Below, in pieces: positions 40,887 through 47,090 of a DNA stretch of 64,000 bases (the first letter of the stretch is position 1; every line of letters starts with the position of its first letter). The notes beneath the pieces are model-generated. The model was not told the DNA's origin, searched no databases, and saw nothing but the letters and a program-made list of their open reading frames with translations. Position numbers and translations under genes: made by a program. The stretch comes from Micrococcaceae bacterium (GTDB lineage Bacteria; Actinomycetota; Actinomycetes; Actinomycetales; Micrococcaceae), in contig JABXHI010000027.1 in NCBI GenBank assembly GCA_013393415.1, forward strand, positions 1-64,000. Direction: 5' to 3'.

Positions 40887-41227
40887 CTAATGAAGTCCCT
40901 TGAGAAGAATCTCGAGCTTCGTTTTTAGAGGAGGTATATCGTCGTGGGCAATTTGTGCGAGTGTTCGGACATCGACCACACAGTATTCATGAGCAATGAG
41001 ATTCTTCATTGCTATTGCGGCTGAAACCTCCTCCAATTTCGGCCTGCTGGCACGGTCCATACGCTGGTATGCATTGGGCGCCTCTCCCAGAATTTCAAAT
41101 TGTCGTTCAACGGCCGATTGCAGGATCAAATCCTCTGCTATATCGTCCGATGATTTCCCTGTTGTAAAAGAAATAATATGCAGACCTGGATCGCGTCGTA
41201 AACGCGTGTGCGGACATCACTCCGCAT
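40887..41227 (-). pseudogene. HepT-like antitoxin-toxin gene with a frameshift
   Basis: ATG 41227 overlaps the end of the mntA-like gene and begins MRSDVRTRVYDAIQV, a typical HepT start. The reading frame then breaks at about 41185, and the rest (HIISFTTGKSSDDIAEDLIL, then SAVERQFEILGEAP) continues in another frame to 40887. Restoring one base would give 113 residues, the normal HepT length. The HEPN ribonuclease motif RNxxxHxY reads KNLIAHEY, so the catalytic Arg is Lys. Either a true pseudogene or an assembly error. Confidence 0.7.
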
Positions 41228-41504
41228 ATATATCGTACTTGTTAGCTTGTACCATTGCTTCGAAGTAGGGATTGGAGAAATTGTAGCCAATCACCAAGTA
41301 CACATCTCTTTTGAGAAGTCTCTCGAGGCCGGACTTCAGTCCCATCCAGGCACGGATACGGCTTGGTGCTTCATTGAGGAACTCCACGAGAAAATCGTAG
41401 TCGCTGTGCTCCGGATCGAAGTCATTTGTTAGTGCCGAACCGAAGAGCGTCAGCGACTTGACGTAATGTCGCTCGCAAATCTTGGAGATGGCGTCGACAT
41501 CCAT
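41217..41504 (-). CDS. MntA-type minimal nucleotidyltransferase
   Basis: 95 residues from ATG 41504, which has AAGGA upstream (ORF open from 41522). The nucleotidyltransferase signature is FGSALTNDFDPEHSDYD, with G22-S23 and the metal-binding pair D35/D37. In MntA-HepT toxin-antitoxin systems this protein adds AMP to the HEPN toxin to silence it. The hepT partner overlaps its 3' end but is frameshifted. Confidence 0.83.
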   Translation of the reverse strand: MDVDAISKICERHYVKSLTLFGSALTNDFDPEHSDYDFLVEFLNEAPSRIRAWMGLKSGLERLLKRDVYLVIGYNFSNPYFEAMVQANKYDIYAE

Positions 41505-41627
41505 CCTGAGTCCTTCAAACACGGATCCAATCTACCGTGCCTGTGCCCGATTTTGTGTTGGAGGAAGAGAACCGCGAGCGCGCTGGACCAGTTAGCCTTG
41601 TTAAGGCGATGTGGGAACGACTTCGTC

Positions 41628-44321: not shown

Positions 44322-44363
44322 TCGAAAGGCCCGCTACCGACCGATTGGTGGCGGGCCTTTCGA
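44322..44363 (+). terminator. Strong hairpin terminator between convergent genes
   Basis: Thirteen-base perfect stem (TCGAAAGGCCCGC with GCGGGCCTTTCGA) around a 16-base loop, 27 bases after the PfpI stop and 53 before the end of the convergent DUF421 gene. On the plus strand the 3' arm contains CCTTTC; on the minus strand the reverse arm has the same symmetry. It probably serves both genes. Confidence 0.75.
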
Positions 44364-44997: not shown

Positions 44998-45058
44998 TCA
45001 GTCATCGTAAGCGAGCCTGCTCTAGGATGGTGCTCTTTGAATGTGCCATGGTGGTGTT

Positions 45059-45565
45059 ATGACACAGCTTCTGGTGATTCATCACTGCCCAACCAACAGT
45101 GTTCAGCAATTGCTCGACGCGGCACTCAAAGGTGCCAACCATCCAGATATTGAAGGCGTCGAAGTCACCTCGGTTCCCGCTTTGGCATGGGCTCGGGGTG
45201 AAGCAGATGAGACCGCGATCAAGGAGGCTGACGGTTACCTGTTCATCACCCCAGCCAATTTTGGATACATGAGTGGGGCACTGAAGCACGTTTTCGACAG
45301 TACGTTCCTCAAGATTGGTGGGTCACTGAGCGCGGACGGGAGCGCGAGCGAAGGCGAGCGAAGTATGCGTCGGCGACCTTATGGCCTCATCGTGCATGGC
45401 CGGTATGACACGACCGGAGCCGTCCGATCGGTTGAGGGAATCGTCGGGGCGCTGGGGTGGCAGCTCGGTGGCGAAATCTTGGAGGCGCTGGGGGACATCA
45501 CCGACGAGCATCTCGAGGCTGCTGAGGACCTTGGCGCTACTGTGGCCATTCAATTGACAGAATGA
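45059..45565 (+). CDS. NADPH-dependent FMN reductase / flavodoxin family protein
   Basis: 168 residues from ATG 45059. The flavodoxin-like pattern is MTQLLVIHHCPTNSVQQLLDAAL at the start, FITPANFGYMSGALKHVFDSTF in the middle (phosphate/FMN binding), and a late GRYDTTGAVRSVEGIVGALGW. It probably reduces quinones or nitro/azo compounds with NAD(P)H. Transcribed alone. Confidence 0.85.
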   Translation: MTQLLVIHHCPTNSVQQLLDAALKGANHPDIEGVEVTSVPALAWARGEADETAIKEADGYLFITPANFGYMSGALKHVFDSTFLKIGGSLSADGSASEGERSMRRRPYGLIVHGRYDTTGAVRSVEGIVGALGWQLGGEILEALGDITDEHLEAAEDLGATVAIQLTE

Positions 45566-45631: not shown

Positions 45632-46618
45632 TCAGCCGATGTGGCGAGCCCAAAAAGAATCTTCAGCCCAGTTTTCAGGGGCCCCCATAGCGATAAGGTT
45701 CAATTTGGGACGTGTATTTAGGAGGTTGTGAAGACGTTGAGCCCAACTGCTATGCGGTGAAATTTCATTAAGAATTGACTGAAGGGATACCAGAACAGGA
45801 TATAGACGTTTTCTGGATCGAGCCGGTAGGGAATCTGTACCACTCAGCCATGAAATTTTGGGTGACGTCGGAATCATAGGGTAGACGCCTAAACCAACGT
45901 TCCATAGCCGACCATGGTGCGCGGAAATGTTCCGAACACGGGTATAAGTAAGCATCCACGATTCCAAGACTGGCGCGGTCAATCCGATACTTTTAGCGAT
46001 TTCCGTTCGGTCAGCACGTCGTTGAAGGTTTCGGTATAAGCTGGTTAGTTGCCCGATGGATAAGGTTTCCACCATCAGCCATGAAGGTGGCATCTCGGGG
46101 GTCCCGTATGTTGTGAGGTAATGCTCGAGGGCTGAGACGTGGACTAGATGGTCTTGTGCGCTGTCGGGTTTGCCCAGCAACCGTTCTTCGCAAATTTTTC
46201 TGACCAGCGTGAGAAAATTACCGTGGCGACGTTGTTGATCGAAATGCGATGGATCTACATACCAGTGAGCGTCGTCGTACCGTGTCGACATATGATCCGT
46301 TAGTGCCGCCCGGAGTGCGACCTCGGCGCGTTCTAAGGCGTCGAGGACCACCAAGCGGAGTTCACGATCGAACACGTAGAGGTCTAGTACATCATCGAAC
46401 GACGTGCCTGTGCGGAACTGATGGTCGGGACCGCCCTGTTGAAATGGGATCGTATATGGAGAAAGCCGATAATATCCAATGTGGCGCAGGTACCTGGCCG
46501 CTCTATCCGGGTGGGGTATTTCTAATCCGCGATCAGCGAGGCGCTTGACGAGGTCCACATTCATCATTGGTGGTTTGTCGTAGTGACCAGACCCACGCGG
46601 CCGGGGTTGTCGCCGCAT
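45632..46618 (-). CDS. Abi family protein (Abi_2, AbiD/AbiF-like) with HEPN motif
   Basis: 328 residues from ATG 46618, with GGAGGAGGGG upstream. The Abi_2 start ARYLRHIGYYRLSPYTIPF is at residues 41-59 and the HEPN ribonuclease motif R229-N-I-S-A-H234 is in TRVRNISAHHGRLWN. Abi_2 proteins cause abortive infection in lactococci and are thought to be RNases held in check until phage attack. A structured, terminator-bearing RNA lies immediately upstream on the same strand (46648-46710). No other defence gene is adjacent apart from an XRE regulator pair. Confidence 0.88.
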   Translation of the reverse strand: MRRQPRPRGSGHYDKPPMMNVDLVKRLADRGLEIPHPDRAARYLRHIGYYRLSPYTIPFQQGGPDHQFRTGTSFDDVLDLYVFDRELRLVVLDALERAEVALRAALTDHMSTRYDDAHWYVDPSHFDQQRRHGNFLTLVRKICEERLLGKPDSAQDHLVHVSALEHYLTTYGTPEMPPSWLMVETLSIGQLTSLYRNLQRRADRTEIAKSIGLTAPVLESWMLTYTRVRNISAHHGRLWNVGLGVYPMIPTSPKISWLSGTDSLPARSRKRLYPVLVSLQSILNEISPHSSWAQRLHNLLNTRPKLNLIAMGAPENWAEDSFWARHIG

Positions 46619-46647
46619 GAATGCCCCTCCTCCTGAGCGATGATGGA

Positions 46648-46691
46648 TAAAAAGATCCCCCAAGTGCGCATCGTGGAGAGGCGTGGGGGAT
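46648..46691 (-). terminator. Rho-independent terminator upstream of the Abi gene
   Basis: Minus-strand stem ATCCCCCA / TGGGGGAT (eight pairs, 21-base loop) followed immediately by CTTTTTA. This is one of the few hairpins in the window with a true T-run. It lies between the candidate promoter and the start codon, so transcription of the Abi gene must read through it. Confidence 0.7.
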
Positions 46692-46710
46692 ATGGTGCCC
46701 CCACTGTAAC
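46648..46710 (-). ncRNA. Candidate structured RNA (leader or antitoxin-type sRNA) of the Abi gene
   Basis: Minus-strand region between a candidate promoter and the Abi ribosome site. It can fold two mutually exclusive hairpins: GTGGGGG with CCCCCAC (arms 46698-46704 and 46683-46689) and ATCCCCCA with TGGGGGAT (46684-46691 and 46655-46662), the latter followed by T5. It could be a free RNA of about 63 nt, like the abiF RNAs known upstream of AbiF genes, or an attenuator. The 5' end is an estimate. Confidence 0.55.
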
Positions 46711-46716
46711 ACATGC

Positions 46717-46744
46717 GTTATTCGCTAGGTTTAAGGAGTGCCAA
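46717..46744 (-). promoter_or_regulatory. Candidate promoter of the Abi leader RNA
   Basis: Minus-strand TTGGCA (46739-46744), a 16-base spacer, and AATAAC (46717-46722) resemble a sigma-70 type promoter. It would start RNA near 46710, just before the two alternative hairpins. Inferred from sequence only. Confidence 0.4.
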
Positions 46745-46886: not shown

Positions 46887-47090
46887 CTAGTTGCCTTCGC
46901 CATGAGGGTCGAAAAGATCGTCAATCTTGCATTCGAAGGTCTCAGCTAAACGGAAGGCCAGAGGCAAGGACGGGTCGAAGCGACCTCGTTCGATGGAGAT
47001 GATTGTTTGGCGGGAGACTCCGAGCTCGTCGGCGAGACGTTGCTGTGACCAGCCCAGGTCTTTCCGTCGTTCGGGTAGCGAGTTCTGCAC
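46887..47090 (-). CDS. Short XRE-type HTH regulator
   Basis: 67 residues from GTG 47090 (VQNSLPERRKDLGWSQQRLADELGVSRQTIISIERGRF). The five-helix Cro/C1 fold fills the whole protein, and the ending FECKIDDLFDPHGE is the usual one for these stand-alone regulators. The start overlaps the end of the upstream membrane protein gene by four bases (GTGC...TGA phase), so the pair is coupled. Probably controls its own operon through the repeats at 47590-47623. Confidence 0.85.
   Translation of the reverse strand: MQNSLPERRKDLGWSQQRLADELGVSRQTIISIERGRFDPSLPLAFRLAETFECKIDDLFDPHGEGN

Follow-up and report, generated by a model that had tools for sequence, protein, structure and literature searches.

The window (the whole stretch of 64,000 nucleotides analysed here, from a Micrococcaceae bacterium) has an Abi_2 gene on its minus strand, and the question is whether the DNA before this gene encodes an RNA that controls it and, if so, by what means. 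The original prediction held that a promoter in this region is followed by two mutually exclusive hairpins, the second with a T tract, forming either an RNA-controlled abortive-infection or toxin–antitoxin unit or an attenuator that senses infection. Its main claim is right, in that this actinobacterial Abi_2 gene is preceded by an abiF-type RNA, and its switch between exclusive hairpins is wrong; the unit in the window is one more example of the already known AbiF–RNA kind. The features listed next all lie on the minus strand.

45632–46618, minus strand: abiF-like gene, 328 aa, predicted Abi_2/HEPN RNase toxin with the catalytic motif R229-N-x3-H234 (RNISAHH)
46629–46634, minus strand: Shine–Dalgarno sequence AGGAGG of abiF, from sequence
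46649–46653, minus strand: T5 tract of the built-in intrinsic terminator, from sequence (T-rich in 58/58 relatives)
46649–46696, minus strand: predicted 48-nt antitoxin RNA (abiF RNA; model R1, 72.4 bits at 46649–46697; fold z −4.3)
46655–46690, minus strand: Rfam RF03085 abiF motif (41.3 bits, gathering score 37)
46683–46704, minus strand: hairpin 1 of the original prediction (GTGGGGG/CCCCCAC), judged a chance palindrome
46703–46711, minus strand: extended −10 promoter element TGTTACAGT (TAnnnT at fitting spacing in 58/58 relatives)

The abiF gene and the RNA before it

The gene belongs to the Abi_2/AbiF family, as had been predicted: the PF07751 profile matches the 328-aa product with 174.8 bits (curated cut-off 25.6) over the full domain (1–184/184), and PADLOC names the product AbiD (199.8 bits). 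Its closest solved relative, and the only sequence relative in the PDB, is PbAbiF (8VZ6; E 7e-45, 31% identity), which is also the only confident structural match to an AlphaFold2 model of the protein (pLDDT 91; Foldseek E 2.6e-18), with a VIA superposition giving Z 28.5 and 2.1 Å over 296 residues. R229, N230 and H234 of RNISAHH are invariant in 33 relatives, and in the alignment to 8VZ6 R229 and H234 stand in register with the catalytic R210 and H215 of PbAbiF (HEPN motif R-phi-x3-H). An extension of the open frame as far as 46714, the start originally proposed, is possible but would make it run through the RNA; we place the start at ATG 46618 because a Shine–Dalgarno sequence precedes it (46634–46629) and the proteins of relatives begin near this position. 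The context is ordinary chromosomal, with an FMN-reductase-like gene (45041–45565, plus strand) and a small XRE-type HTH gene (46887–47087, minus strand) as neighbours. As a separate observation, a second HEPN toxin–antitoxin candidate lies 4 kb away (40887–41522, minus strand), a HepT-like HEPN and MntA-like nucleotidyltransferase pair whose HepT frame looks short (80 aa).

Upstream of abiF and on the same strand, the Rfam covariance search proposed with the original prediction returned RF03085 with a score over the gathering threshold and an E value of 4e-4 when the whole window was scanned. It is the sole Rfam match in the window at that threshold, and the window RNA covers the 37-nt model end to end. 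This is hairpin 2, whose outer stem pairs 46690–46684 with 46662–46656 (7 bp) and whose inner stem pairs 46683–46681 with 46670–46668 (3 bp), with CCUCUC in the loop, CA in the 3′ bulge and a U tract thereafter; since the U tract directly follows the hairpin, the predicted antitoxin would double as a terminator. A terminator scan restricted to loops of 3–8 did not report it. The motif ends (46655) 36 nt before ATG 46618, and the window holds one copy of it, with no tandem repeats. The candidate promoter was borne out as the extended −10 element at 46711–46703, and a sigma-70 consensus scan found no −35/−10 pair, in line with conservation of the extended −10 only. With a start at A46696, seven bases past TGTTACAGT and placed from the −10 box and a conserved leader (CACYACAU), the predicted RNA reads ACCAUAUCCCCCACGCCUCUCCACGAUGCGCACUUGGGGGAUCUUUUU; with one extra A it folds into a single hairpin of −17.4 kcal/mol, a stability reached by 0/200 shuffles, and hairpin 2 with its T5 tract can be regarded as real.

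Conservation and covariation of the two hairpins

A protein-only similarity search of GTDB genomes yielded 80 AbiF relatives (L025–L104), mostly from Actinomycetota and spread over many families, with Saccharopolyspora, Rhodococcus, Nocardia, Microbacterium, Cellulomonas, Actinomyces, Micrococcus and others represented. Model R1, which was built on 62 RNAs that partly came from the loci it then counted, placed the RNA upstream of 77 of the 80, and a motif-and-stem scan independent of R1 gave the same picture; the remaining three lie at a contig end (L080, L101) or lack the N terminus of the gene (L084), which leaves 77 of 77 testable relatives with the RNA. Among actinobacterial relatives the RNA is nearly letter-for-letter identical and the leader CACYACAU is conserved; TAnnnT stands 12–14 nt before the stem in 58/58 (shuffles 4.3%), the full extended −10 (TGnTAnnnT) in 42/58 (shuffles 0.2%), and the tract after the stem averages 5.6 T per 8 nt. 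Because RNAalifold displaced the 3′ arm where loops were longer (MAFFT alignment A2), covariation was counted on the named structure. Compensatory changes involving both partners occur in 8 of its 10 stem pairs (32 both-side change cells against 7.0 in shuffles; 0/500), and it outscores every slid version of itself. The covariation on which the original prediction had staked itself is thus present in hairpin 2. Loop and bulge bases (CCUC, GAUGC, GCA) are conserved across phyla about as strongly as the stem. In the titles and abstracts of the literature on Abi_2 in actinobacteria we found no RNA-associated example, in agreement with the remark that none had been described there, but such units are abundant in actinobacterial sequences, and predicted abiF RNA–toxin pairs are common in this group. 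The abiF RNAs of proteobacterial and viral-contig relatives (L090–L109) are a longer version of the Rfam motif in which the apical hairpin is extended (CTCGGACGAAG...CTTCG...TGCGCAC).

The other hairpin pairs GTGGGGG (46704–46698) with CCCCCAC (46689–46683), shares CCCCCA with hairpin 2 and is mutually exclusive with it, and a 73-nt strand begun upstream of the −10 element folds in its favour; these points speak for a two-state attenuator, the alternative originally put forward, in which hairpin 1 acts as an antiterminator, blocks hairpin 2 and is switched by infection. The predicted transcript, however, folds to hairpin 2 alone, the first two bases of the 5′ arm of hairpin 1 lie inside the −10 box and the whole arm lies upstream of the predicted start. 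All seven pairs can form in 0/58 relatives (shuffles 0.5%) and six of seven in 1/58 (shuffles 5%), at or below chance, and with none of the 58 forming it hairpin 1 was rejected as a conserved antiterminator. We judge it a coincidence and probably untranscribed. The expectation that both hairpins would be conserved upstream of actinobacterial Abi_2 genes therefore holds for hairpin 2 and fails for hairpin 1, and because the latter is confined to the window sequence, at chance level in relatives and probably not transcribed, the infection-sensing attenuator is unsupported and we regard it as extremely improbable; a plain terminator with read-through is likely.

Pairing of the CCUCUC loop with the Shine–Dalgarno sequence of its own mRNA was considered separately and rejected as a conserved mechanism (−9.9 kcal/mol in the 58 relatives versus −9.7 kcal/mol for UTRs of other classes, P = 0.49); the window's own loop/Shine–Dalgarno duplex has −15.7 kcal/mol.

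RNA classes, orphan RNAs and the chromosomal site

Abi_2 genes were found in 67 of 197 Micrococcaceae genomes and R1 matches in 24. A strong hairpin with a T tract precedes the start of 68 of 71 other Abi_2 genes (L175–L241), at a threshold of 20, compared with 5% of windows taken from other places and 7% of shuffled sequences, and nearly every Micrococcaceae Abi_2 gene has a promoter–hairpin–U-tract RNA, in about ten sequence classes. We named these classes by visual inspection of the sequences, and the protein tree was built afterwards; on that tree they require 13 changes, with a minimum of 11 and a shuffled mean of 46.9 (0/200), and one misfit (L204) proves to share its clade's class when a decoy hairpin is disregarded. 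Compensatory changes occur in 4 of 13 pairs of class II and 2 of 14 pairs of class III, and none of the 20 loci of other classes that were scanned matched the abiF family in Rfam. The match of class to clade strongly supports a partnership between RNA and protein. On balance we favour the view that these unlike hairpin RNAs, each tied to one Abi_2 clade and for the most part seemingly absent from Rfam (the covariance models of Zilberzwige-Tal 2025 may already cover them), are potentially orthogonal antitoxins, with orphans that persist after loss of the toxin.

Orphan abiF RNAs detected with R1 (L148/L149, L154, L158, L159 and L169/L170) are intact or nearly so, several with an intact promoter and stem and one (L154) with a compensated base pair, and in tblastn with 69 Abi_2 proteins the surrounding ~1.5 kb (less on one side of L158) contained no Abi_2 gene. 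They are either decaying remnants or solitary antitoxins. The source genome itself holds a second complete abiF RNA–toxin pair of another RNA subtype (L002, G000:C76:7458-7493; CCTCCCAAGCCTCT...GGGAGGG), a broken third Abi_2 gene without an RNA (L003, G000:C48) and a third RNA followed by an apparent degraded AbiF frame (L171, G000:C8:16521-16569).

At the site occupied in the window, directly behind the same FMN-reductase gene, three congeners (G443, G467 and G519) carry RNA relics (L163, L165 and L166, at G467:C101:2417-2461, G443:C3:80419-80462 and G519:C58:104796-104839) with a shortened loop, no visible promoter and no toxin gene. In these congeners the toxin gene has probably disappeared and the hairpin has remained; because the relics share one site, that site is an old one for the genus and recent acquisition of the window locus is not favoured, and because the gene was lost in congeners, the abiF of the window is taken to be dispensable. 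These relics, together with how common plasmid relatives are (377 PLSDB records, of which 190 are predicted to be conjugative), are consistent with the same RNA–toxin biochemistry serving a phage-independent role, as a chromosomal addiction or stress module or a selfish element with no part in defence. The naming of the AbiD/AbiF group for phage resistance in Lactococcus and the enrichment of abi_2 genes near defence genes count against this role, which we consider possible but somewhat unlikely. A caveat to the defence reading is that the Abi name comes from lactococcal relatives; for the C. difficile AbiF system, anti-phage activity was not demonstrated (PMC12373285). Elsewhere in the window, a palindromic element (44322–44363; 86% match to its own reverse complement) that recurs in G443 and G467 is possibly a small repeat or a two-way terminator.

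Proposed mode of action and relation to known systems

We consider it highly probable that the locus is a type III-like toxin–antitoxin or abortive-infection unit in a one-hairpin version, a reading drawn from its layout, which is that of C. difficile AbiF/RCd22 and of PbAbiF/AbiFr; the RNA-controlled unit originally proposed is further supported by the Rfam match, the covariation, the 77/77 testable relatives and the PbAbiF–ncRNA structure. One extended −10 promoter would give a short RNA of ~48 nt, most transcription would end at the hairpin and U tract, leaving the RNA in excess, and occasional read-through would supply the abiF mRNA. The hairpin (7-bp stem, 3-bp inner stem, CCUCUC loop and 3′ CA bulge) would bind an AbiF HEPN homodimer and block its RNase site; if the RNA ran short, because a phage took over transcription, under stress or because the locus was lost, free AbiF would cut RNA and growth would stop. 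The hairpin thus very probably both restrains the toxin and ends most transcription before abiF. Binding of RNA by the protein, toxicity and RNase activity are predicted for the window unit from its homologues, and its trigger and a part in phage defence are points that we infer only.

The gene set, the promoter, hairpin and terminator layout, the conservation, the covariation and the co-inheritance with the toxin clade are direct observations of this study. By themselves, co-inheritance and conservation fit an antitoxin and a purely cis-regulatory leader alike and cannot separate them. In the latter case the RNA would be a terminator, constitutive or regulated, that holds abiF transcription down and binds no protein, consistent with the position of the hairpin and U tract immediately before the gene and with the strong lowering of downstream expression by the C. 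difficile RCd22 region with its terminator (PMC12373285). Yet a terminator needs no particular loop or bulge bases, and these are conserved about like the stem across phyla; moreover, RNA class tracks protein clade, homologous RNAs bind AbiF and act in trans, and orphan RNAs with an intact promoter persist without a gene. A leader acting solely in cis is therefore improbable, and we retain the toxin-restraining hairpin as the preferred reading.

The nearest characterized systems bear on this reading. C. difficile AbiF is toxic; the RNA RCd22 binds it directly and neutralizes it both in cis and in trans, the terminator keeping the RNA abundant and the toxin scarce, and when RCd22 is deleted together with its terminator, abiF expression rises 17-fold (PMC12373285). 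The two systems share the protein family, the order promoter–RNA–terminator–toxin and the RNxxxH motif, but RCd22 is an RNA of 98–132 nt in which two abiF motifs are accompanied by a distinct terminator (PMC12373285), whereas the predicted window RNA, of ~48 nt, has one motif that is itself the terminator. PbAbiF/AbiFr, as far as it is summarized in PMC12737573, is an RNA–toxin pair homologous to the window unit; the ncRNA-bound Prevotellaceae protein (8VZ6), at the 31% identity given above, shares its fold with the window AbiF model over the whole length. Relative to RF03085, with which it has the stem, inner stem and CCUCU loop in common, the actinobacterial RNA adds the conserved 5′ leader CACYACAU outside the Rfam consensus and an extra covarying pair (A2 columns 15–41) that is unpaired in that consensus, and its inner stem is CGC/GCG rather than AGC/GCU. 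This minimal form, a single 48-nt hairpin as predicted antitoxin and terminator, is conserved across Actinomycetota and, together with the clade-matched RNA classes, offers material for studying recognition between toxin and RNA and a possible evolutionary route from inhibition to RNA guidance.

ToxIN, TenpIN and CptIN likewise place an RNA antitoxin upstream of the toxin with a terminator between, the type III layout also present in the window. ToxN-type toxins, however, are unrelated RNases with tandem-repeat antitoxins, whereas the window encodes a HEPN toxin and one unrepeated hairpin; given this single unrepeated motif, the unit works like a type III system but is not a classical ToxIN-type member. 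AbiF with its RNA is a proposed ancestor of Cas13: AbiF has been cited as a Cas13 precursor (PMC12948488), and the HEPN domains of Cas13 have been proposed to derive from AbiD/F (PMC12165695). Cas13 carries two HEPN domains per chain, a guide and a CRISPR array, whereas no array was noticed beside the window gene and its AbiF is a protein of 328 aa with a single Abi_2 domain.
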